From: a bacterium SCSIO 12696
GTDB taxonomy: Bacteria > Pseudomonadota > Gammaproteobacteria > Pseudomonadales > Porticoccaceae
Assembly (NCBI GenBank): GCA_024397955.1
Contig: CP073744.1
Coordinates: 1,550,001 to 1,614,000, forward strand
Length of the DNA: 64,000 nucleotides
Reading direction: 5' to 3'
Part shown: positions 13,852-25,559 of the stretch, one piece after another
Layout: the number at the start of each line of letters is the position of its first letter
Numbering within the stretch: position 1 is the stretch's first letter
Made by a program: the position numbers and the translations under genes
The notes under the pieces: generated by a model
What the model was told of the DNA's origin: nothing
Databases searched by the model: none
The model's input: only the letters and a program-made list of their open reading frames with translations

Positions 13852-13867
13852 ACTGGTGTATACCACT
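13852..13867. promoter_or_regulatory. Putative phosphonate-regulator operator 1 (permease)
   Basis: ACTGGTGTATACCACT, a TGG-N6-CCA palindrome 20 bp before the permease ATG. It shares form and spacing with the sites at 16844, 16954 and 21027. Mycobacterial PhnF, a related GntR/HutC regulator, is known (from memory) to bind TGGTATAGACCA-type repeats. Confidence 0.6.
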
Positions 13868-13887
13868 TAATGTGACTGATTCGAGCC

Positions 13888-15195
13888 ATGACACAACTAC
13901 TGCAACGCATTACCCGCCGGGGCCAAGGGTTTAGTTTCTGCCTGTTTGCCATGATTGCCGCCTTTTGTACGTACTCCTGTATGTACGCGTTTCGCAAACC
14001 CATCGCCGTTGGCCTCTACGAAGATATTGTCTACTGGGGCATCTCCATCAAGGTGCTTTACCTATCGGCACAAGTAGCCGGGTACGCGCTGTCAAAATTT
14101 ATTGGCATCAAAGTAGTATCGGAGCAAAGTGGCAATGGCCGGGCCAAAGGCATTCTGACCTTGATCACTATTGCTGGCATCGCCCTGTTGCTGTTCGCGC
14201 TGTTGCCGCACCCCTGGAATATCGTGTGTATGTTCCTCAACGGCATTCCTCTGGGTATGGTTTGGGGTTACGTATTCAGCTACCTGGAAGGCCGCAAGGT
14301 GACCGAAGTGCTGGCCGCCGGCTTGTGCACCAGCTTTATCGCCTCCTCCGGCCTGGTAAAAACTGTGGGCAGCTACCTGATGCTCAACTGGGGCGTGGAT
14401 GAGTTCTGGATGCCGGTAACCACCGCTGCGCTGTTTATGCCGCTGTTAATGCTAGCGGTGTATATGCTGGAGCAGCTACCACCCCCTAATACAGATGACA
14501 TTCGCCTGCGCACCAAGCGCGAACCTATGGACGCTTCCGCCCGGCGGGCATTCTTCAAACAGTTCAGTACGGGTCTGTGCCTATTGATCGGCGGTTATGT
14601 GCTGCTGACCATTTTTCGGGATTTGCGTGATAACTTCACCGCTAATATATGGGACGAACTGGGCTACACCGACTCACCGGCCATTTTCAGCCTCACAGAA
14701 ATTCCCATCGCGGTGGTTGTACTGATGATTATCGGCGCCATGATGCTGATTAAAAGCAACAGCCGGGCATTAATGGTCAATCATTTTTTGATTTTATTTG
14801 GCTTTGCCAGCTGCGGGTTATCTACCCTGGCTTACCAGGCTGGCTACCTAAGCCCAATCAGCTGGATGATTATTAACGGTTTTGGCCTTTACCTCGCTTA
14901 CGTACCGTTCAACAGCGTACTGTTTGAACGCCTGATCGCTACGTTTAAGCAGGTTGGCAATGTGGGCTTTTTGATCTACTTGGCGGATTCGTTTGGCTAT
15001 CTGGGCAGCGTTGGGGTGATGGTGTACAAAAACCTCGGCCAAGGGGGTATTCAGTGGCACAGCTTTATTATTTACACCAGTTATCTGGTGGCTGCGCTGG
15101 GGGTATTTTTTACGGTGGGCTCCTGGTGCTACTTTGCCAACAAACACCGGCGGCAGAAGGGGGAATCAGCACCGCTAGCAGGGGTAGCGGCCTAA
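13888..15195 (+). CDS. MFS-like permease (DUF5690-like), candidate phosphonate importer
   Basis: 435 aa, about twelve membrane helices. The first half has the CTYSCMYAFRKPIAVGLYED and GIPLGMVWGYVFSYLEGRKVTE segments that I associate with DUF5690-type major-facilitator proteins. Substrate is unknown for the family. Two facts link it to the phosphonate genes: it sits at the edge of that block, and it has a TGG-N6-CCA operator-like palindrome just before its start, like those before phnW and the TonB receptor. No phosphonate ABC transporter is present, so it could be the inner-membrane step (inference). Its 3' end overlaps the convergent prmC by 21 bp. Confidence 0.7.
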   Translation: MTQLLQRITRRGQGFSFCLFAMIAAFCTYSCMYAFRKPIAVGLYEDIVYWGISIKVLYLSAQVAGYALSKFIGIKVVSEQSGNGRAKGILTLITIAGIALLLFALLPHPWNIVCMFLNGIPLGMVWGYVFSYLEGRKVTEVLAAGLCTSFIASSGLVKTVGSYLMLNWGVDEFWMPVTTAALFMPLLMLAVYMLEQLPPPNTDDIRLRTKREPMDASARRAFFKQFSTGLCLLIGGYVLLTIFRDLRDNFTANIWDELGYTDSPAIFSLTEIPIAVVVLMIIGAMMLIKSNSRALMVNHFLILFGFASCGLSTLAYQAGYLSPISWMIINGFGLYLAYVPFNSVLFERLIATFKQVGNVGFLIYLADSFGYLGSVGVMVYKNLGQGGIQWHSFIIYTSYLVAALGVFFTVGSWCYFANKHRRQKGESAPLAGVAA

Positions 15196-16011
15196 AGTCA
15201 CACGATCATTACCCGCCAGATCCTGGCGGGTTTGTACCGTTTGAAAGCCGTCATTCACCAACAGATTTCGCACCGCCGCCCCCTGGTCATAACCGTGTTC
15301 CAGCAATAGCCAACCATCCCTGTGCAAATAATTCGCAGCGGTCGTCACAATAGCGCGAATATCTGCCAGGCCCTCCTCGTCGGCGACCAGTGCCGAACTG
15401 GGCTCAAAGCGCACGTCACCCTGTTGCAAGTGAGCATCTTTCGGATCGATATAAGGGGGGTTGCTGACAATCAGGTGGTAGCTATTTTCAGGTACGTGCT
15501 CAAACCAATTGCTTTGCCAAACCCGCAAGTTGTTCAACCCCAGTCGCTCGCGATTATGCTCTGCCAAAGCCACCGCCTCGTCGACAACATCCACCGCATC
15601 CACCTGCCAATCCTGGCGCTCAGAAGCCAGCGCCAAGGCGATGGCACCGGTGCCAGTACCCAAATCCAGCACTTGGGCGTGTGCCGACAAAGGCAAGTCC
15701 AAGGCAAGCTCTACCAGCAGCTCAGTTTCCGGACGGGGAATAAGCGTGGAGGCATTCACCACCAAAGGCAGCGACCAGAATTCCCGCTCACCGACAATAT
15801 GAGCTACCGGCTCTCCCCTTTTGCGACGATCTAATCCAGCCTCAAAATCGGCCTGCTGCTGTTCGCTCAAACAACGCTCTGGCCATGTGTAGAGATAAGA
15901 GCGATCACGCTGCAGAAAATGGCAAAGCAGAACTTCAATATCCAATCGCGGGGTATCACTGACGGAGGCCAGCTCATCCGCTCGTTTTAGCAGCTGAGCA
16001 ATGGTGGGCAT
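15175..16011 (-). CDS. prmC: Release factor glutamine methyltransferase PrmC
   Basis: 278 aa from the ATG at 16011. It methylates the GGQ glutamine of release factors RF1 and RF2. Visible: the N-terminal helical recognition domain, RPETELLVE, the SAM-binding DLGTGTG (about 116-122) and the catalytic NPPY (about 184-187). The ATG shares one base with the stop of the GntR gene (TGATG), so translation is probably coupled; a further in-frame ATG lies two codons upstream. prmC normally follows prfA directly. Here prfA ends 8.5 kb away in the same orientation, with the phosphonate block between. Confidence 0.94.
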   Translation of the reverse strand: MPTIAQLLKRADELASVSDTPRLDIEVLLCHFLQRDRSYLYTWPERCLSEQQQADFEAGLDRRKRGEPVAHIVGEREFWSLPLVVNASTLIPRPETELLVELALDLPLSAHAQVLDLGTGTGAIALALASERQDWQVDAVDVVDEAVALAEHNRERLGLNNLRVWQSNWFEHVPENSYHLIVSNPPYIDPKDAHLQQGDVRFEPSSALVADEEGLADIRAIVTTAANYLHRDGWLLLEHGYDQGAAVRNLLVNDGFQTVQTRQDLAGNDRVTLGRYPC

Positions 16012-16733
16012 CAGCAAACATCCGTGGATACGCGAATCTCAATGGCGTCGTGCAGCCATAACTCTTCATCGTATTCCACAGCTGTTTGGTTCTGGTCGTA
16101 ACGGGTACGGTGAATCGCAACACAGTAACTGCCATCGGCAACCGCCAGCTGCTCGGCCTGCTCCCTGCTCAGGGCCGTGGCATTAATGGTCACTTCTTCA
16201 CGTACGACCTCTATGTTGTAGTGGTCGCGAAAAATACTGGTCAGGGAAGAGGACACATCCTGGTCGAGCAAGCGCTCAATACCAACACCATTGATGGTGA
16301 TGTTTTCCAACAGCACGTGGCGGCCATCCAGGCTGCGGCGACGGCGCAGCTGGTACATAGGGTCGCCTCGCTTTAAGCCCAACTTGGCCCCTTGAGCGGC
16401 AGAACGGCAACGACTCTGGTGCGCTGATAACGCTTCCGTAGTCGGTACCCGGCCTTGCTCCCGGGCCAATACACTGAAGTTGCTACGCAAGGTGGGGTCA
16501 AACACCGGTTTGGGGGGGGTTACAAACCAACCCCGGCGATTGGAGCGATAAATAACCCCTTCCCGCTCCAGCTGAGACAAAGCAATGCGCAACGTCACCC
16601 GGGTAGTGGCAAATTCCGCCATCAGTTCTCGCTCGGAGGGCAATTTATCCCGATAGCGCGGCGCCTTGCGGTGAATCTGCCCCAGCATGGTGTGATAAAT
16701 GGACGCGTAAAGCGGTGCGTTTAAAGAGGTCAT
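16011..16733 (-). CDS. phnR: GntR/UTRA-family phosphonate utilisation regulator
   Basis: 240 aa. The N-terminal GntR winged helix (about 8-72) shows KLPSERELMAEFATTRVTLRIALSQLEREG. The C-terminal UTRA ligand domain (about 95-235) shows the HutC-type segments RRRSLDGRHVLLENI and YDEELWLHDAIEI. Divergence from phnW marks it as the local regulator, probably a repressor released by 2-aminoethylphosphonate or a relative (inference). Four TGG-N6-CCA palindromes in the block fit HutC-type operators. The gene overlaps prmC, so their expression is linked. Confidence 0.85.
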   Translation of the reverse strand: MTSLNAPLYASIYHTMLGQIHRKAPRYRDKLPSERELMAEFATTRVTLRIALSQLEREGVIYRSNRRGWFVTPPKPVFDPTLRSNFSVLAREQGRVPTTEALSAHQSRCRSAAQGAKLGLKRGDPMYQLRRRRSLDGRHVLLENITINGVGIERLLDQDVSSSLTSIFRDHYNIEVVREEVTINATALSREQAEQLAVADGSYCVAIHRTRYDQNQTAVEYDEELWLHDAIEIRVSTDVC

Positions 16734-16843
16734 GAGAACTCGTTGCCTTTTGCCCTGAGCAAAATAAAACGCAACTTAGAGCAGCCACTGGGGGTTTGCA
16801 AGCGCCGCGCCGGCAACTTCTACAAACTTGCGACCTAGAAAAA

Positions 16844-16859
16844 ACTGGAATACACCAAA
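16844..16859. promoter_or_regulatory. Putative phosphonate-regulator operator 2 (phnR side)
   Basis: ACTGGAATACACCAAA: TGG-N6-CCA in the phnR/phnW intergenic region, 110 bp from phnR and 128 bp from phnW. It could serve autoregulation of phnR or act as an auxiliary site for phnW. Confidence 0.5.
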
Positions 16860-16926
16860 AAAACAGCTTTTATGACAACCTTAAATAAAACAGTCATATA
16901 CTTTTGTTTTACTGCATAAAATTCAA

Positions 16927-16955
16927 TTGACCTGCATATCAAACAGATTCAAAAT
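16927..16955 (+). promoter_or_regulatory. phnW: Candidate phnW promoter
   Basis: TTGACC (-35) and CAAAAT (-10) spaced by 17 bp. The operator at 16954-16971 would cover the -10 to +1 region, as expected for repression. The -10 is imperfect (4 of 6). Confidence 0.4.
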
Positions 16956-16971
16956 CTGGAATATACCAGAT
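16954..16971. promoter_or_regulatory. Putative phosphonate-regulator operator 3 (phnW)
   Basis: ATCTGGAATATACCAGAT, an 18-bp near-perfect palindrome ending 16 bp before the phnW ATG. Its reverse complement matches the receptor site at 21028 over 15 of 16 bases. Confidence 0.7.
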
Positions 16972-16987
16972 ATATCGGAGAAACCTT

Positions 16988-18094
16988 ATGAATGCCCCCG
17001 TAAACACCAACCACTACCTGTTGCTGACTCCGGGCCCACTGACTACCAGCGACAGCGTGCGCCACTCCATGCTCAAAGACTGGTGTACCTGGGACGACGA
17101 ATACAACAATCTGGTACAGAGCGTTCGCCACGACCTGGTGGCTCTGGCCACCCTCAGCGAAGGCTACACCGCTGTTCTGATGCAAGGCAGTGGCACCGCT
17201 TCGGTAGAGGCCACCATTGGCAGCGCCGTACCTGAAAATGGCAAGCTGTTGATTCTCAGCAACGGCGCTTATGGCGACCGCATTGTCGAGATTGCCAACT
17301 ACCTGCGTATCGACTACGTGCAACAGGATCACCACGAGCTGGACGCCATCGACCTGGAGCGTCTGCAAGCCACACTGGCGGAAGACAGCGACATCACTCA
17401 CGTAGCCGTGGTTCACTGCGAAACCACCACTGGTCGCCTCAACGACATCCCTGCAGTCAGCGCCTTGGTCAAGCAACACAACAAGGTACTTATCGTCGAT
17501 GCCATGAGCAGTTTCGGTGGCTTACCCATGGATGTAGCAGCACTGAATATCGACTTTCTGGTGAGCTCTGCCAACAAATGCATTCAAGGGGTTCCCGGCT
17601 TCGGTTTTGTGATCGCGAAAACCGACGAAATGGAAAAACTGGAAGGCCGCGCTCGCTCCCTGAGCCTGGACCTTTACGACCAGTGGAAGACCATGGAAAC
17701 CCAAAATGGCAAGTGGCGCTTTACCTCGCCCACCCATGTGGTACGCGCCTTTCGTCAAGCCCTGGATGAACTGAACCTGGAAACACTGGAACAGCGTTAC
17801 CAGCGCTATCGCAACAATCAAAGCACATTGGCACAAGGCATGGCTGAACTGGGCTTTAAAACCATGATTGATGCCAGCGAACAGTCGCCGTTCATCACCT
17901 CGTTTTTCTACCCGGAATCGGAGCAGTTTGAATTTAACCGCTTTTACGAAGCTCTGAAACAGCAAGGTTTCGTGATCTACCCCGGCAAAGTCTCCAACGC
18001 CAGTTGCTTTCGAATTGGCACCATTGGTGAGGTGCAGGGGCACGATATTGAACGACTGCTCGGCGCCATCAAAAACAGCATGTACTGGGTATAA
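16988..18094 (+). CDS. phnW: 2-aminoethylphosphonate:pyruvate transaminase
   Basis: 368 aa PLP enzyme that moves the amino group of 2-aminoethylphosphonate (AEP) to pyruvate, giving phosphonoacetaldehyde and alanine. Family marks: [10 protein letters not shown] at the start, [22 protein letters not shown], the PLP aspartate in VDAMSSFGG (D171) and the Schiff-base lysine in [12 protein letters not shown] (K197). The ribosome site GGAGAAACC precedes the ATG. First gene of the operon, just after an operator-like palindrome. Confidence 0.95.
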
Positions 18095-18144
18095 AGCTAC
18101 TCGACTTTCAAACACCCAAACCACTTTTTAGATGAGCATCAGTA

Positions 18145-18957
18145 ATGAGCAACAACATTGAAGCAGTTATTCTGGATTGGGCCGGCACCGTTGTGGATTA
18201 CGGTTCTGTAGCCCCCACCACTATTTTTGTAGAAGCCTTTAAACAAGCCTACAACTTTGACATCAGCCTGGATGAAGCTCGCGGCCCCATGGGTATGGGC
18301 AAATGGGATCACATCAAGGCTCTGGGGCAAATGCCATCAGTGAATGAGCGCTGGACAGCCCAATTTGGTGCGCCCATGACCGACGTCACCGTGGACGAAA
18401 TCTACAGCGCCTTTATGCCACTGCAGAAAGCCAAGGTCGTCGACCACGCCACCCCCATTGCCGGCGCCCTGGACAGCATTCACTGGATGCGGCAACAGGG
18501 TATTAAAATTGGCAGCTGCTCCGGATACCCGCGAGAAGTCATGGAAGTGCTGGTAACTGCCGCCGCCGCACAAGGCTATATCCCAGATCACTATGTGGCC
18601 TGCGATGACCTGGCAGCGGGCTCTCGTCCCGGCCCCTGGATGGCACTGCAAAATGTGATTGCACTGGGTGTCAATGACGTCGCCAACTGCATCAAATTCG
18701 ACGACTCCGCCCCCGGTATCAGCGAAGGCCTGAATGCGGGCATGTGGACCATTGGCCTCAGCCTTACCGGCAATGCCGTGGGCCTGACCGAAGTGGAATG
18801 GAACGCGCTAAACGACATTCAAAAAGGGCAAATGCGCAGCGATGCCATCAGCGAACTGAGTGCCGCCGGCGCCCACTACGTGATCGACAGTCTGGCTGAA
18901 GCCCCACGGACTATTCAGGAGATCAGCGCCCGCCGGGCAAGAGGTGAAAGGCCCTAA
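18145..18957 (+). CDS. phnX: Phosphonoacetaldehyde hydrolase (phosphonatase)
   Basis: 270 aa HAD-family enzyme that cleaves the C-P bond of phosphonoacetaldehyde to acetaldehyde and phosphate. The nucleophile is in [13 protein letters not shown] (D11). The Schiff-base lysine is in MGMGKWDHI (K53), the same numbering as the Bacillus cereus enzyme. SGYPREVM and the acidic [11 protein letters not shown] complete the HAD core. It lies 50 bp after phnW and its TAA overlaps the next ATG (TAATG). Confidence 0.96.
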
Positions 18958-20357
18958 TGGACAACAACCACCTGCCGTTTTGGTTTAAGGAAGCACTGGC
19001 GACAGAACAACCTCAGTCCAACACCCCGCTCTGTGAACACAAAAGTGCCGACATCTGTATTGTCGGCGGTGGTTACACCGGACTGTGGAGCGCCATCAAA
19101 ATCAAACAACAGGCACCGGAAAAGCAGGTGGTTGTTATTGACAAAGGTCTTTGTGGGGAAGGCGCATCTGGCCGCAACGGTGGCTGCATGCTCACCTTTT
19201 CCACCAAGTTCCCCACCTTGCGCCGCCTGCTGGGGGAAGCGGAAGCCATGGAGCTGGTTACCGCTTCTGAAAAAGCGGTATTTGCTATCCGCAACTTCTG
19301 CGACAAACACCGTATCGATGCCGATGTGCGCGTAGACGGTGCTCTGTACACCGCATCCAACCCCAGCCAGGTGGGCATTCTGCGCCCAGTCATTGCCGAG
19401 CTGGAGCGACTCGGCATCAACCGATGGCAAAAATGCACGGCAGAGCGATTGCAACAATTGTCTGGTTCCGGGCTCCACCTGGAGGGCCATTACAGCCCCG
19501 CCGCCGGTAGCCTGCAACCCGCCAAACTGGTACGTGGCCTGCGCCGGGTGGCCCAGGAAATGGGCGTGGAAATTTACGAACACACGCCCATGACCAAGCT
19601 GGACTATGGGCCCCAGGTTCAGGTTCACACCCCCACTGGCATTATCACTGCCGACAAGGTGATTCTGGCGATCAATGCCTGGATGGCCCGCAAATTCCGC
19701 TTCTTTCGCCGCAGCCTGGTACTGGTGTCATCGGATATGGTGATCACGGAGCCCATGCCGGAACAGCTGGACAAAATCGGCCTCAACCACGGCACCGCTG
19801 TAGTGGACTCGCGCACCTTTGTACACTACTACCGCAGCACCCCGGATGGCCGCTTGATGCTGGGCAAAGGGGGCAATTACTTTTCTTACGGTAACCGGGT
19901 ATCGCCGGTATTCGATTCCCCCAGCCGTTACCGTGGGCAGCTGGACAACGCCCTGCAACGGTTTTTCCCAACACTGCCTCACAACATTCACCAGACCTGG
20001 ACAGGTGCCTCGGATCGCTCGGTAACCGGGCTGCCATTTTTTGGCCATCTGCCCGGACAACCCAATGTACTCTACGGTTTCGGCTACTCTGGCAACGGTG
20101 TTGTACAGAGTCACCTGGGCGGCGACATCCTCACCGCCATGGCCCTGGAACTGGATAACTCCTGGCGTCACTCGCCACTGGCTCGAGGGTGTCGCGGCTA
20201 CTTCCCGCCAGAGCCCCTTCGCACCGGTGGTGCGCTGATGGTACGCAACGCAATACGCCGAGTAGAAGCCCGCCAAGACGCCAACAAGACGCCATTTGTT
20301 GGCGATACCTGGCTGGCGGCGCTGGCAGGCAGTGCCGGCAAGGCTGACCGACTGTGA
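18957..20357 (+). CDS. FAD-dependent amine oxidase of phosphonate cluster
   Basis: 466 aa D-amino-acid-oxidase-fold flavoprotein. The dinucleotide site VGGGYTGLWSA (about 40) leads into a conserved GEGASGRNGGCM. LMLGKGGNYFSYGN and the C-terminal YGFGYSGNGVVQSHLGG FAD segment follow. It belongs to the DadA / gamma-glutamylputrescine-oxidase-like group. Such genes recur in AEP clusters, where some relatives oxidise AEP or N-methyl-AEP to phosphonoacetaldehyde (from memory). That would feed PhnX directly without pyruvate. It is translationally coupled to phnX (TAATG) and to the HD gene (GTGA), so a role in the same pathway is likely, but the substrate is not proven here. Confidence 0.82.
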   Translation: MDNNHLPFWFKEALATEQPQSNTPLCEHKSADICIVGGGYTGLWSAIKIKQQAPEKQVVVIDKGLCGEGASGRNGGCMLTFSTKFPTLRRLLGEAEAMELVTASEKAVFAIRNFCDKHRIDADVRVDGALYTASNPSQVGILRPVIAELERLGINRWQKCTAERLQQLSGSGLHLEGHYSPAAGSLQPAKLVRGLRRVAQEMGVEIYEHTPMTKLDYGPQVQVHTPTGIITADKVILAINAWMARKFRFFRRSLVLVSSDMVITEPMPEQLDKIGLNHGTAVVDSRTFVHYYRSTPDGRLMLGKGGNYFSYGNRVSPVFDSPSRYRGQLDNALQRFFPTLPHNIHQTWTGASDRSVTGLPFFGHLPGQPNVLYGFGYSGNGVVQSHLGGDILTAMALELDNSWRHSPLARGCRGYFPPEPLRTGGALMVRNAIRRVEARQDANKTPFVGDTWLAALAGSAGKADRL

Positions 20358-20923
20358 ACGCTTGCGACCCAGGTAAAAGCATCGCGCAAATTCGCGAATT
20401 ATTTGAAGAGTACGGCGAACGCCATTACGGCGAAGCCTGCACTCAGCTGGAGCACGCAATCAGCTGTGCCCAGCACGCGGTGCAAAGCAATATGCCAGAG
20501 CACATGGTGATTGCTGCCTTGCTGCACGATATAGGCCACTTTGTCGCGGATCGGCAGGGCTTACCGGGCTTTGATCAATGGGGGTATGCCGCTCACGACT
20601 CCCTGGGTGCCAATTACCTCCAGTCCTTAGGCTTCGGCAAGGCAGTGACCGAACCCATTCGACTACACGTCGCCGCCAAACGCTATCAGGCAACTTTGGA
20701 AAATACCGAACTGTCTGTAGCCAGCAGCGCAACGCTGCAACAACAAGGCGGCACCATGAGCAACCAGGAATGCCAACAATTCAAGAGCCACCCCTGGGCC
20801 AATGATGCGCTCAGGTTGCGCCAGTTGGACGACACGGGCAAGCCAGACAAGCTGGAAAATACCAATATTGAGCCCTGGCTTGAGAGAGCCAAAGTTTATT
20901 TACGGGCATCTCAGACAACCTGA
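20354..20923 (+). CDS. PhnZ-like HD-domain diiron oxygenase (phosphonate-associated)
   Basis: 189 aa, GTG start overlapping the previous stop. It matches the phosphonate-operon HD family (TIGR03276/PhnZ type). The PhnZ diiron ligands are all recognisable: H34, H58-D59 in LLHDIGH, H81, H105 and D159 or D160 in RQLDD. The substrate residues Y25 and E27 (HYGEA), H62 and K109 (HVAAKRY) are also present. PhnZ cleaves the C-P bond of (R)-1-hydroxy-AEP made by the 2-oxoglutarate oxygenase PhnY. No phnY is in this cluster, so the hydroxylated substrate must come from outside the cell or from an enzyme elsewhere. Confidence 0.85.
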   Translation: MNACDPGKSIAQIRELFEEYGERHYGEACTQLEHAISCAQHAVQSNMPEHMVIAALLHDIGHFVADRQGLPGFDQWGYAAHDSLGANYLQSLGFGKAVTEPIRLHVAAKRYQATLENTELSVASSATLQQQGGTMSNQECQQFKSHPWANDALRLRQLDDTGKPDKLENTNIEPWLERAKVYLRASQTT

Positions 20924-21026
20924 AATAATTATTTCCAATTAATTCAATTCATTACCAAATAAATGATTTTTTCATTTAAAGCGTATTGGCTGTACCCGCC
21001 TATTATAAAGTTTTTCTGAAAAAATC

Positions 21027-21043
21027 ATCTGGTATATTCCAGT
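21027..21043. promoter_or_regulatory. Putative phosphonate-regulator operator 4 (TonB receptor)
   Basis: ATCTGGTATATTCCAGT, 112 bp before the receptor ATG, almost the reverse complement of the phnW site. A TATATT inside it could be the -10 box. The rest of the 231-bp gap 20924-21154 is AT-rich with no gene. Confidence 0.65.
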
Positions 21044-21154
21044 TGTAAAATTAGTTTCATATTACATCGGTATTGTTCTCCCCAGAATCACCCAATACTG
21101 CGGGCAAAGCCCATTAACAACCCAGCTATATAGCTGAACATCAAGGGGAAACCA

Positions 21155-23725
21155 ATGAACAAGCTCTCTCCACTCGCAGCCGCCATTGCGATTGCCAGCA
21201 GCCAGTTGGTTATGGCTGAAAGCAATAGCGATCAGGTTATCGAAGAAGTTCGTGTACTGGGCCACATTGTGCGTGGCCAGATGAAAGCACTCAGCGAACA
21301 GCGCAATTCCAACCGCATCGTCAATGTTGTGGCTGCGGACGGCATTGGCAAGCTGCCAGATCGCAACGCCGCCGAAGCAGTACAGCGAATTCCCGGCGTA
21401 TCCATTGAACGTGACCAGGGCGAAGGCCGCTTTGTGGCCGTGCGCGGCCTGCCCTCTCAATGGGCATCAACCACCCTTAACGGCGACCGTCTACCCACCG
21501 CCGAAGAAGAAACCATCACTCGCGCCACTGCGTTTGACTTTTTCCCTTCAGAATTGATTGAGTCAGTGGAAGTTTCCAAAGCGGTTACTGCAGACATGGA
21601 AGGAGACGCCATTGGCGGCGCAGTAAACTTTATTACCCGCACCGCTCCAGAAGAAGAAGTATTGAGCTTCACCGCAGGCACCGGCTACAGCGAAAAAGCC
21701 GAAGACGGTGGGCACGCGTTGAACCTGACCTACGGCAACCGCATTCTCGACGACAAATTGGGCTTTATTGTTAACGTCTCCAAATGGGAACGCGACTGGG
21801 CCACAGACAACTTTGAACCCCGCCGCACCGGAAGCCTGGGCGGTATCCGCCGCCTGGAACTGCGTGACTACACCGGCACCCGCGACACGGTGGGCTTTAA
21901 CGGCGCCATGGAATACGTATTCGACAACGGCGACACTGTGTTCGCCCGCGCCAACTACGGCACTCTGGACGACGACGAAACCCATTACAAGCATCGCTAC
22001 CGCTTCGATAAAGATCGCGTGGAACTGCAAAACATCCACGATATTCTGATTACCGAATTAACCGGTTACCAGATTGGTGGTGAGCACCAGCTGGCTGAAA
22101 CCACCCGCCTTAACTGGCAGCTTTCAACCTACGAAAATGAGTTCCGCTACGGTGATCTCCCTGACGCGGAAAACAATTCTTATTTCGTGACCCGTTTTGA
22201 CCAAACCAATGTTGGCTATGTTGGCCTGGAAGATCGCGGCGACGGTAAAAACCTGGCTTACAACGTCATTGATGGCGGCACCGATGAGCCTTTTGGTGTG
22301 AACACCCACCTACCCAGTGGTTACGTAGCCGACCCCACTCAGGCCAGCCTCAAATCCGTTGAACTCTACAAGGTATTCGTCAACGAAAAAGACAAGGCGG
22401 TGCTGCAATTTGATCTGACCACCGAAGCCAGTGACACCGTGGAATGGAAGTACGGTTTTAAATACCGCGACAAAGAGCGTATATCTCGCTTCACCGACGA
22501 ATTTTATGTGTGGAACGAAGACCGCGCCGGGCGCGCTGCACCACTACTGTCTGATTTCAATTTGATGGATCAGCCAGGCCGCAACGATTTTTTCTCCGGC
22601 GATATCGACACCAACGCCAGTGCCGACTTCTTCCAGGTTGTCTCCCGGGAAGAGCTGGTACAGTTTTGGGCGGATAACCAGCAATTCTTTGACCTGTCTC
22701 CCGAATCCGACGGCGACACTGTTCTGGTACCCAACGGCCGCAACTTCGACGTAGAAGAAGAGCAAATGGCGGTTTACGGTATGGCCACCTGGAACTACAG
22801 CGAAAACATCACCGTTGTCGGCGGCCTGCGTCTGGAGCAAACCACCACGGACGTATTCGGTCAGCAACGTGTTGTAACAGACAGCGGCGAGAGCATTGAA
22901 GACTTTTCAGACAGCAACGACTACCTGTCTGTGCTGCCATCACTGCACATCAAGTACGCCATTAACGACGACAGCAATGTGCGTTTTGCTCTGACCCGCA
23001 CCTTTGCCCGCCCTGACTTCGGCTCATTGACTCCCAGTGCCACTCTGGACAGCGCCGATGGCGAAGTGGATATCGGCAACCCCAACCTGGACCCAACCTA
23101 TTCCTGGAATCTGGATTTGTTGTATGAACGCTACCTGGGCAATCTGGGTGTGGTATCTGCCGGGTTGTTCCACAAGGAAATTTCAGACCCGATCTACTCA
23201 TCTAGAGAGCAGGGGCAATTCCGTGGCAACGACGTTGATATTGTTTCTTTTGCCAACGGCGCCAGCGGATCACTGACCGGACTTGAGCTGGCCTTTAACA
23301 ACAGCCTGGAGTTTATTGACCCAGCCTTGGAAAACTTTGGCTTCCAGACCAACCTGACGCTGATGGATTCTGAGTTCACCTTGCCAGACGGCCGCGTAGC
23401 CGCAGTGCCACGCCAGGCGGACGAGCTGTACAACATGGCGGTGTACTACGACAACGGTGTGTTTGCCGCCCGTATTGCCCTGAACCACAAGGGTGAGTAC
23501 ATCGAACAGTACGGTTCCGACGCCAACAGCGACCGCATCTACGGCGACTACACCAGCCTGGACGTGACCACCACCTGGAACATCACTGACAACATGCTGG
23601 TGTACCTGGAGGCCAACAACATCAACAACGAACCGCTGATTTACTTTATCGGTAACGAAGCACGCCCAGCCCAAGTGGAGTTCTACGGAACCCGCGCCCA
23701 GCTCGGCTTTAAATACTCGTTTTAA
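21155..23725 (+). CDS. TonB-dependent outer-membrane receptor of the phosphonate block
   Basis: 856 aa. A signal peptide (about 1-21, cleaving after LVMA) leads to a TonB-box-like IEEVRVLG (about 29-36). The plug domain (about 50-170) has GKLPDRNAAEAVQRIPGVSIER, VRGL and GDAIGGAVNFITR. A 22-strand-type barrel ends in the outer-membrane signature FKYSF. The form is that of the TIGR01782 (Xanthomonas/Caulobacter) receptor group, which imports oligosaccharides and other large solutes. No FecIR-type regulators are nearby. A shared operator palindrome and position suggest import of phosphonate or a phosphonate-bearing conjugate (inference). Confidence 0.88.
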   Translation: MNKLSPLAAAIAIASSQLVMAESNSDQVIEEVRVLGHIVRGQMKALSEQRNSNRIVNVVAADGIGKLPDRNAAEAVQRIPGVSIERDQGEGRFVAVRGLPSQWASTTLNGDRLPTAEEETITRATAFDFFPSELIESVEVSKAVTADMEGDAIGGAVNFITRTAPEEEVLSFTAGTGYSEKAEDGGHALNLTYGNRILDDKLGFIVNVSKWERDWATDNFEPRRTGSLGGIRRLELRDYTGTRDTVGFNGAMEYVFDNGDTVFARANYGTLDDDETHYKHRYRFDKDRVELQNIHDILITELTGYQIGGEHQLAETTRLNWQLSTYENEFRYGDLPDAENNSYFVTRFDQTNVGYVGLEDRGDGKNLAYNVIDGGTDEPFGVNTHLPSGYVADPTQASLKSVELYKVFVNEKDKAVLQFDLTTEASDTVEWKYGFKYRDKERISRFTDEFYVWNEDRAGRAAPLLSDFNLMDQPGRNDFFSGDIDTNASADFFQVVSREELVQFWADNQQFFDLSPESDGDTVLVPNGRNFDVEEEQMAVYGMATWNYSENITVVGGLRLEQTTTDVFGQQRVVTDSGESIEDFSDSNDYLSVLPSLHIKYAINDDSNVRFALTRTFARPDFGSLTPSATLDSADGEVDIGNPNLDPTYSWNLDLLYERYLGNLGVVSAGLFHKEISDPIYSSREQGQFRGNDVDIVSFANGASGSLTGLELAFNNSLEFIDPALENFGFQTNLTLMDSEFTLPDGRVAAVPRQADELYNMAVYYDNGVFAARIALNHKGEYIEQYGSDANSDRIYGDYTSLDVTTTWNITDNMLVYLEANNINNEPLIYFIGNEARPAQVEFYGTRAQLGFKYSF

Positions 23726-23736
23726 CGTCCCCTATT

Positions 23737-23756
23737 GAGCGTGCTTCGGCACGCTC
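23737..23756. terminator. UUCG hairpin after the receptor gene
   Basis: GAGCGTGC, loop TTCG, GCACGCTC, starting 12 bp past the receptor stop. No T tract of its own; it precedes a second, T-tailed hairpin and may protect the 3' end. Confidence 0.5.
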
Positions 23757-23765
23757 GCGCAAAAG

Positions 23766-23801
23766 AAAATGCCCCGATTCATCAGACCGGGGCATTTTTT
23801 T
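23766..23801 (+). terminator. Intrinsic terminator after the receptor gene
   Basis: AAAATGCCCCG and CGGGGCATTTT arms around a 14-nt loop, with seven T at the end. Confidence 0.85.
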
Positions 23802-23808
23802 GATAAAA

Positions 23809-23835
23809 AGCAGCGAGCTTCGTGCTGCGAGCAGA
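23809..23835 (+). repeat. GCTGCGAGCA dispersed repeat, copy 3
   Basis: Member of the repeat family seen at 5613 and 6037. It shares 20 of 24 bases with the inverted copy at 24440-24473, including a pair-specific GAGCAGAYCGAG end. Confidence 0.55.
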
Positions 23836-23881
23836 CCGAGTGTATTTGATTTTATTCGGGAAACTTTTGAATTGAGCAGAC

Positions 23882-23953
23882 TTGTCGGACTAAAGCCCGA
23901 CCTACAATAAAAATCCCACACCTTCCCCTGTAGATTGGCCTTTAGGCCGACAA
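23882..23953. repeat. REP-like inverted pair (TTGTCGG...CTACA)
   Basis: A 25-bp unit at 23882-23906 is repeated in inverse orientation at 23929-23953 with 21 of 25 matches. Each unit is itself partly palindromic (CGG-CTAAAG-CC). The layout is that of a BIME. Confidence 0.6.
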
Positions 23954-23960
23954 ATATCTA

Positions 23961-24284
23961 TCAGGCGCTTTGATACTTCGTCAGGATTTCACTACAAGCT
24001 TTCTTTACATCTTCCCTATAAAAATTCACAACTTCCTTTAATTCTTTATCCGACCTTTCTAACAACATAGAGGAGCAATACTGTCTCACTTTTTCTGTGG
24101 GTAAATGGTCTGTATCAGATTCAATAACACCAAACACATGAAACTCAGTGCCCCAGCGCTCATCGTAAAAACTATTTCCAAGCCTCCAAAGCTCAATCAC
24201 ATTGTCCAAATAGTTAACATCTGAATCCAATAGTGCTTTGGCTAGTTCGCAAGCTTGCACTTTAATGTCTGTTTTATCTTCCAT
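23961..24284 (-). CDS. Hypothetical small acidic protein
   Basis: 107 aa from the ATG at 24284; a GTG 34 codons upstream would give 141 aa, and neither has a strong ribosome site. Family not recognised. The protein is mostly helical and charged (VQACELAKALLDSDVNYLD; LLERSDKELKEVVNFYRED). The gene is AT-richer than its neighbours and stands alone between the phosphonate block and prfA. Inverted copies of a dispersed repeat lie on both sides. This suggests a recent arrival. Confidence 0.5.
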   Translation of the reverse strand: MEDKTDIKVQACELAKALLDSDVNYLDNVIELWRLGNSFYDERWGTEFHVFGVIESDTDHLPTEKVRQYCSSMLLERSDKELKEVVNFYREDVKKACSEILTKYQSA

Positions 24285-24439
24285 ACTCGAGATAGCAGAA
24301 TAAATTAAAAATTTTAACTTTCCATCATCGCAAACGAAACGCGGTGATTTCCAACCGAGCACTCCGAAGTCAGAAAATTGCCGCACCTCTTCGCGGCTCG
24401 CAATGGCGAGTAATACTCAAAGTACCAACTACCCTCGAT

Positions 24440-24473
24440 CTGCTCGCAACCCGCAGCCCGAAACTCGCAGCAC
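24440..24473 (-). repeat. GCTGCGAGCA dispersed repeat, copy 4 (inverted)
   Basis: Reverse-complement partner of the copy at 23809-23835. It abuts the prfA stop codon at 24474. Confidence 0.55.
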
Positions 24474-25559
24474 TTATTCCCCCGCCAACGCCGCCAGTTG
24501 ATCCGCTTGATATTCCGTCACCAACGGTTGCACCACTTCTTCCAATTTGCCTTGCATAATTTCGTCTAATTTATAGAGCGTCAGATTGATGCGGTGGTCG
24601 GTGACTCGGCCTTGGGGGTAGTTGTAGGTGCGAATCCGCTCGGAGCGATCACCACTGCCCACCAACAAGCGACGGGTGTCGGACTGCTCTTTGGCAGCGG
24701 CTTCTTCCTGGGCCTGCTGCAGACGCGACTGCAAGTGCGCCAACGCCTTGGCTTTGTTTTTGTGCTGGGAACGTTCGTCCTGGCACTCCACCACTACGCC
24801 AGTGGGCAGGTGGGTAATGCGAATAGCCGAGTCGGTCTTGTTGACGTGCTGGCCACCGGCACCGGAGGCGCGAAAGGTATCAATGCGCAGCTCCGCCGGG
24901 TTGATTTCGATGGCATCCAGCGCGTCCGCTTCCGCCAAAATTGCCACGGTGCAAGCGGAGGTGTGAATGCGCCCTTGAGATTCGGTTTCCGGTACTCGCT
25001 GCACCCGGTGGGCACCGGACTCAAACTTCAGTTTGGAGTAAGCACCGGCCCCGACAACGCGACTGATCACTTCTTTAAAACCGCCGTGCTCACCGTCGCG
25101 GGCGCTGATCATTTCGATGCGCCAGCCCTGCAGTTCCGCGTAGCGGGAGTACATGCGAAACAAATCGCCGGAAAAAATCGCCGCTTCGTCACCACCAGTG
25201 CCAGCGCGAATTTCCAGGAACACGTTTTTGTCGTCGTTGGGGTCTTTGGGCAGCAGCAGTTTTTGCAGCTCGGTTTCCAACGGCTCCAGCGCTGCCTCAC
25301 CCTGCTTCAATTCTTCCTGAGCCATTTCCCGCATATCCGGGTCGGCGTCCTTGAGCATGGCTTTAGCTTCGTCGATGTCCGCCAATACCTGCTGGTAACG
25401 ACCATAGCTTTTTACCACCGGCTCCAGCTCGGCGTACTCGCGACTCAACGCCTGAAACTTTTTTTGATCGCCAATCACATCCGGATCGCCCAGGGAAATC
25501 CCCACTTCTTCGTAGCGTTCCATCAGGTGTTCCAGTTTGTCGAGAATGCTTTGTTTCAT
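24474..25559 (-). CDS. prfA: Peptide chain release factor 1
   Basis: 361 aa. RF1 ends translation at UAA and UAG. The tripeptide anticodon region reads [16 protein letters not shown] (PxT as PET, 190-192), and the catalytic GGQ is at 235-237 in [13 protein letters not shown]. Length and sequence match the E. coli protein closely. It starts 12 bp after the hemA stop, so the two are one operon. prmC, its usual downstream partner and modifier, is displaced to 15175-16011. Confidence 0.97.

Follow-up and report, generated by a model that had tools for sequence, protein, structure and literature searches.

The stretch analysed, called the window below, comprises 64,000 nucleotides of contig CP073744.1 of bacterium SCSIO 12696, and the subject here is a phosphonate locus within it, where four palindromes accompany genes for a permease, a regulator, phosphonate breakdown and a TonB-dependent receptor (Table 1). 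PhnW and PhnX are both over cut-off and encoded within one operon, and the PhnWX phosphonatase pathway is thus present. The regulator, PhnR1, has a GntR domain (PF00392, 55.9 bits) and a UTRA domain (PF07702, 103.9 bits), which places it in the GntR family as a HutC-like protein, the kind an earlier note on this DNA had claimed; its solved relatives are NagR/YvoA, DasR and 3f8m.

Table 1. Genes and putative operators of the window locus, and operator-like sites of the second regulator locus (positions are those of the window; MFS, major facilitator superfamily; AEP, 2-aminoethylphosphonate; FAD, flavin adenine dinucleotide)
Feature	Position	Strand	Score or core sequence	Remarks
Putative operator 1	13852..13867	.	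TGGTGTATACCA (13854-13865)	22 bases 5' of permease ATG (13888)
DUF5690 permease, 435 residues	13888..15195	+	Pfam PF18943, 544.3 bits (gathering cut-off 25)	MFS fold
prmC, release-factor methyltransferase	15175..16017	-	TIGR03534, 301 bits, over cut-off	
PhnR-type GntR/UTRA regulator (PhnR1)	16011..16733	-	TIGR03337, below cut-off	GntR and UTRA domains
Putative operator 2	16844..16859	.	TGGAATACACCA (from 16846)	112 bases 5' of phnR (start 16733, minus strand)
Putative operator 3	16954..16971	.	TGGAATATACCA (from 16957)	19 bases 5' of phnW (16988)
phnW, AEP:pyruvate transaminase	16988..18094	+	TIGR02326, 568.8 bits, over cut-off 400.8	
phnX, phosphonoacetaldehyde hydrolase	18145..18957	+	TIGR01422, 318.9 bits, over cut-off 220	
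FAD aminophosphonate oxidoreductase (Pbf-type)	18957..20357	+	TIGR03329, 719.6 bits, over cut-off	
HD-domain phosphonate oxygenase-like protein	20354..20923	+	TIGR03276, 184.7 bits, below cut-off 214.6	
Putative operator 4	21027..21043	.	TGGTATATTCCA (from 21030)	113 bases 5' of TonB receptor (21155)
TonB-dependent receptor, 856 residues	21155..23725	+	TIGR01782, 482.6 bits, over cut-off	Plug PF07715 and barrel PF00593
PhnR2-locus site			TGGTCTACACCA	Before PhoD phosphatase gene
PhnR2-locus site			TGGTATAGACCA	Between TonB receptor and regulator
PhnR2-locus site			TGGTGTAGACCA	Before HAD-IB phosphatase gene

The four palindromes that the earlier note had described before or between the permease, phnR/phnW and receptor genes are all present, and each is intergenic; the TGG...CCA cores begin as listed in Table 1, and sites 3 and 4 share one 14-base core sequence, read on opposite strands. 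The pattern given for them, CTGG-N6-CCA, fits all four but alone is too loose: it has 34 matches in the window, where 11.4 are expected, and 623 + 642 = 1265 strand-matches in the genome of 2,930,128 bases, and it was dropped as the motif. The discriminating information is in the inner positions of the palindrome. The strict pattern TGGWRTAYWCCA occurs at seven genome sites, against one for the reversed control, and four of the seven are those of the window; having been derived from these four, it yields a count that is partly circular. Two of the remaining three lie inside open reading frames (ORFs), and one (2635914) is ambiguous, being within a 146-residue ORF that the greedy gene picker rejected. 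Because TGGWRTAYWCCA came from the four sites themselves, a looser pattern, TGGNNTANNCCA, was used; it has 69 genome sites (36 for the reversed control), all classified by simple greedy ORF calls. Twelve are intergenic, 11 by those calls plus the one at 1913004, which lies 26 bases 5' of a likely phoD start masked by an upstream TTG. Seven of the 12 occur at only two loci, four in the window and three around a second PhnR gene, and both loci carry their own PhnR-type GntR/UTRA gene; the other five are at 1088737, 1998841, 2310751, 2635914 (the ambiguous site) and 2909233. Equally good intergenic sites elsewhere in the genome are thus few.

Conservation was examined in 114 loci, i.e., the phnW loci of the order, the DUF5690 loci and three more, including the second locus of the same genome. 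A locus was counted as PhnR-bearing if it encoded a PhnR relative scoring >100 bits, and expectations were taken from first-order random sequence. The pattern TGGTNTANACCA was found at 57 sites in the 28 PhnR-bearing loci (0.4 expected) and at four sites in the 86 loci without PhnR (0.85 expected); those four belong to genomes G116, G107, G259 and G013, each of which has a PhnR elsewhere. All but two of the 57 (55/57) are near gene starts, and 23 of the 28 PhnR-bearing loci have at least one. Conservation in relatives, which had been suggested as a check, is therefore strong, and TGGTNTANACCA tracks PhnR. In L068 and L071 phnW has a site before it, as does the TonB receptor gene in L067 and L071; in L066, L117, L125, L134 and L151 a site lies 16-30 bases 5' of DUF5690. 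The sites of G013 lie before the receptor gene and before phnW, within one divergent gap; G259 has them before the receptor gene, before phnW and before a FAD gene preceding DUF5690, and Caulobacter and Brevundimonas have one before DUF5690. An origin of the palindromes in chance or in some widespread motif, as the 1265 strand-matches of the short pattern might suggest, is scarcely credible when intergenic sites of the fuller motif cluster at two PhnR loci and the sites of relatives follow PhnR; chance is refuted for the set of four, though single sites could be non-functional. As a separate observation, the 12-mer TGGAATACACCA also occurs in L182 (7376), in what by eye looks like a GntR-type coding region, and was not counted there as an operator.

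A genome search with TIGR03337 found the second paralogue, PhnR2, at G000:C1:1917500 of the same genome (228.8 bits, like PhnR1 below the cut-off); the two are 33.5% identical. Its locus (L180, G000:C1:1913000-1919020) encodes a TonB receptor, a PhoD phosphatase and a HAD-IB phosphatase and has three operator-like sites (Table 1). Since PhnR2 is found with same-family sites and phosphatase genes, the genome would hold two regulons with sister operators, one for phosphonates and one for organophosphates, and for the same reason a given site may be bound by PhnR1, by PhnR2 or by both. PhnR1 groups in the tree with the PhnRs of G013, G116 and G259 (support 86/89), and PhnR2 with the Pseudoalteromonas PhnR (support 100/99). 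The latter sits between DUF5690 and a TonB receptor sharing 50% identity with that of the PhnR2 locus; on the far side of this receptor lies a PF00245 alkaline phosphatase.

Among 293 genomes of the order, DUF5690 scored over cut-off in five and PhnW in 28. The receptor of the window (E<=1e-200, at most three candidates scored per genome among those listed) was found in four, G000 (the window's own genome), G013, G116 and G259, precisely the four in which DUF5690 and PhnW occur together. The naive probability of this co-occurrence is 3.3e-9, uncorrected for kinship; G013 and G116 share a genus, and the true weight is thus less. Beyond the order, where two to six candidates were scored per genome, it was present in 3/398 genomes of the phylum and 2/369 of the class (E<=1e-150), and in 2/149 genomes of the family of G371 (E<=1e-200). 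In G371 itself (L182) the receptor is clustered with DUF5690, a PhnX-like hydrolase and PhnM, and in Sphingobium Leaf26 (L163) it adjoins PhnX-DUF5690.

The AlphaFold2 model of the permease has a predicted local distance difference test score of 92.6, its best Foldseek matches are to G6PT/SLC37A4, and the modelled fold appears nearest to the organophosphate:phosphate antiporters. The invariant R36-K37 of DUF5690 aligned with R45-K46 of GlpT over 103 N-terminal columns (E 6e-4, probability 28), with the R269 region unaligned; R45 and R269 are the phosphate-binding arginines of GlpT. The HH alignment to GlpT alone is weak, a single-sequence comparison gave 0.045, and a search of the PDB set with a five-sequence DUF5690 alignment returned no match at E<=10. 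A phosphonate-enzyme cluster lies within 7 kb in 58 of 85 DUF5690 loci, a count that is approximate because neighbours were clustered by single linkage and each cluster named by one representative or by phmmer; the named DUF5690 loci are the best 80 of 564. A literature search found no paper naming DUF5690. On a Cyclobacteriaceae contig (L103:1368-6135), PhnX-like and HD genes lie between two DUF5690 genes.

We read the four palindromes as probable operators of a PhnR-type GntR/UTRA repressor that jointly control phosphonate breakdown and import across both membranes, and give this a probability of about 0.78. Without inducer, a PhnR dimer on the operators would block the promoters of the permease, phnR, the phnW-phnX-FAD oxidase-HD operon and the TonB receptor; an aminophosphonate (AEP, N-methyl-AEP or phosphonoacetaldehyde) would bind the UTRA domain, whereupon all four promoters would open together. 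The receptor would bring dilute or larger phosphonates past the outer membrane, and the DUF5690 carrier, which belongs to the MFS, would move them across the inner one; PhnW or the FAD oxidase, with PhnX, would then convert them to acetaldehyde and phosphate. The sites, their conservation, the tracking of PhnR, the gene content, the co-occurrence and the fold are read or modelled from sequence, and from these we infer binding, repression rather than activation, the effector and the cargo of both transporters, the import steps following from gene position and kinship. PhnR2 may act at the permease site as well, and phosphate esters may be among the substrates of the permease. The single regulon of the earlier note, covering both import steps and catabolism, thus stands insofar as one operator family joins permease, phnR, phnW operon and receptor; it is weakened by the presence of two PhnR-type regulators in the genome and by the retention of the permease operator in the sister species G107.

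Several further observations weigh against a joint phosphonate regulon. PhnR1 does not reach the PhnR equivalog cut-off (TIGR03337, 217.6-218.1 against 296.75) or that of TIGR02325 (71.7 against 156.8), and the promoter scan of the stretch found no -35/-10 of quality. Five of the 28 PhnR loci are without an exact site: L069, whose contig ends at the receptor, and Pseudoalteromonas L086, L087, L089 and L090, whose PhnR genes are preceded by variants with one mismatch, such as TGGTACATACCA; L086 and L087 have such variants 5' of DUF5690 too. In 20/85 DUF5690 loci there is no phosphonate-enzyme cluster and no PhnR, the G654 receptor (53% identity) has no window-type phn gene in the 13.6 kb covered, and in G107 permease and operator are retained although neither PhnW nor PhnX scores over cut-off. 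The G107 permease is 94% identical to that of the window, the operator 12-mer is identical and lies in the same orientation to the gene, 16 bases 5' of DUF5690 (L066), and the genome also has PhnR2 with its own sites. Because G107 keeps that operator without PhnW/PhnX, the permease is presumably not tied to phosphonate catabolism alone. There may be two overlapping regulons, with PhnR2 mainly or also binding the permease site and DUF5690 serving phosphate esters (phosphoethanolamine, phosphocholine or the like) besides or instead of phosphonates, an alternative that we take seriously but hold at somewhat less than even odds. The receptor, PhoD and HAD-IB genes beside PhnR2, each with a same-family site, are consistent with it, as are the Pseudoalteromonas relatives of PhnR2, with their neighbouring DUF5690, related receptor and phosphatase, and a Caulobacter locus (L134:6912-9041) with PhnR and DUF5690, where the neighbouring phospholipase C-like gene has a PhnR-type site in front of it. 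However, most DUF5690 neighbourhoods are of phosphonate type, and in L094, L130, L142, L144 and L158 the gene is <=20 bases from PhnX or PhnW genes.

Most known cargoes of TonB receptors are metal complexes and large molecules. The receptor might therefore be co-regulated with the phn genes and yet bring in some other cargo (a metal chelate, a phosphate ester or a complex glycan), small phosphonates entering through, e.g., porins. The receptor belongs to a broad family, with 1060 proteins at E<=1e-100 out of 7995 candidates scored, most of them in contexts outside those covered, and the G654 receptor lies away from window-type phn genes; the literature consulted mostly assigns the outer-membrane passage of phosphonates to porins, as the review PMC10574752 assumes. 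We nevertheless judge another cargo unlikely, as the receptor-first search of the 293 genomes found the receptor only alongside DUF5690 and PhnW, and its neighbours in Sphingobium and in G371 are phosphonate genes. Combining these strands, we tentatively suggest, at not quite an even chance, that DUF5690 is a new inner-membrane carrier family whose substrates are amino-organophosphorus compounds (AEP, N-methyl-AEP, phosphoethanolamine, phosphocholine), that it repeatedly occurs with a TonB-dependent importer (a lone receptor or SusCD) as an envelope-spanning phosphonate route, placed under a PhnR-type switch in Pseudomonadota, and that the permease is divided between, or common to, a phosphonate and a phosphate-ester regulon governed by two PhnR paralogues whose operators are nearly identical.

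The phnR-to-receptor block sits between prfA and prmC (window 15175-24474), prmC lying between the permease and the phn island and overlapping phnR by 7 bases, and prmC may thus be transcribed from the phnR promoter. Because the prfA-prmC junction of G107 holds in its place a 328-residue, leucine-rich-looking ORF (L066:7468-8454), the block is most simply taken as an insertion made when permease and operator already stood beyond prmC, and the junction may be an insertion hot spot. Insertion beside a pre-existing permease would tie the permease in by operator, not by operon, and its control by PhnR1, PhnR2 or both is possible. Among the 12 genomes of the family, PhnX was found only in that of the window. 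Identity to G107 is 72% for prmC, the lowest among nine genes compared, against 98.9% for prfA, and the base composition of the phn genes (54-59% G+C, against 52.6% for the window) gave no sign of foreign origin.

The proposed regulon resembles several described systems. As in the GntR/HutC phosphonate repressors (PhnF and TIGR03337-type PhnR), GntR and UTRA domains, an autoregulatory position and a TGG-N6-CCA palindrome occur together; unlike them, the regulon includes a TonB receptor and DUF5690, two paralogues occur in one genome, and the regulator is below both equivalog cut-offs. The PhnF operator is presumably of HutC type, and TGGTATAGACCA, the motif of the relatives, presumably matches the M. 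smegmatis PhnF site. PhnW converts AEP to phosphonoacetaldehyde, Pbf oxidases obtain the same product from N-methyl-AEP, and PhnX splits it; as in PhnWX-Pbf systems (PMC10590968), phnW, phnX and the FAD aminophosphonate oxidase share an operon, whereas that of the window adds an HD oxygenase-like gene, for which no partner dioxygenase was identified here. AepP, the MFS 2AEP permease of the inner membrane of Pseudomonas putida BIRD-1, is GlpT-related and linked with phnWX (PMC8316502). DUF5690 is likewise a putative inner-membrane MFS carrier, and its nearest solved folds appear to be of the same organophosphate antiporter group; unlike AepP it forms its own Pfam family, and its control would be GntR-type rather than by the LysR-type AepR (PMC9311074). 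PusCD complexes stand beside phosphonate-degrading enzymes in Flavobacterium (PMC8115612), and TonB-linked uptake therefore has a precedent in Bacteroidota, although those are SusC/SusD pairs responding to phosphate starvation and the window has a lone receptor, in Pseudomonadota, with a PhnR-type operator. No phosphonate receptor was found in the literature consulted on TonB-dependent transport and aminoethylphosphonate, including PMC5955973. Phosphonates are a main reduced form of phosphorus, and their crossing of the outer membrane is of interest; the regulon offers a TonB receptor and the uncharacterised DUF5690 family as testable transport candidates, and the TGGTNTANACCA operator is a ready signature for finding more members.

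The proposed overlap of the phnW site with a -10 box proved weak: the promoter-like match there (TTGACC-17-CAAAAT, 16927-16955) shares 2 bases with the palindrome, and the scanned stretch has two such matches, fewer than the mean of 7.3 in shuffles. A Pho-box reading of the phnR-phnW gap was set aside on inspection by eye, with no scan made. A one-mismatch site, TGGAAAATACCA, occurs at window positions 20853-20864, within the end of the HD gene and ~290 bases 5' of the receptor.

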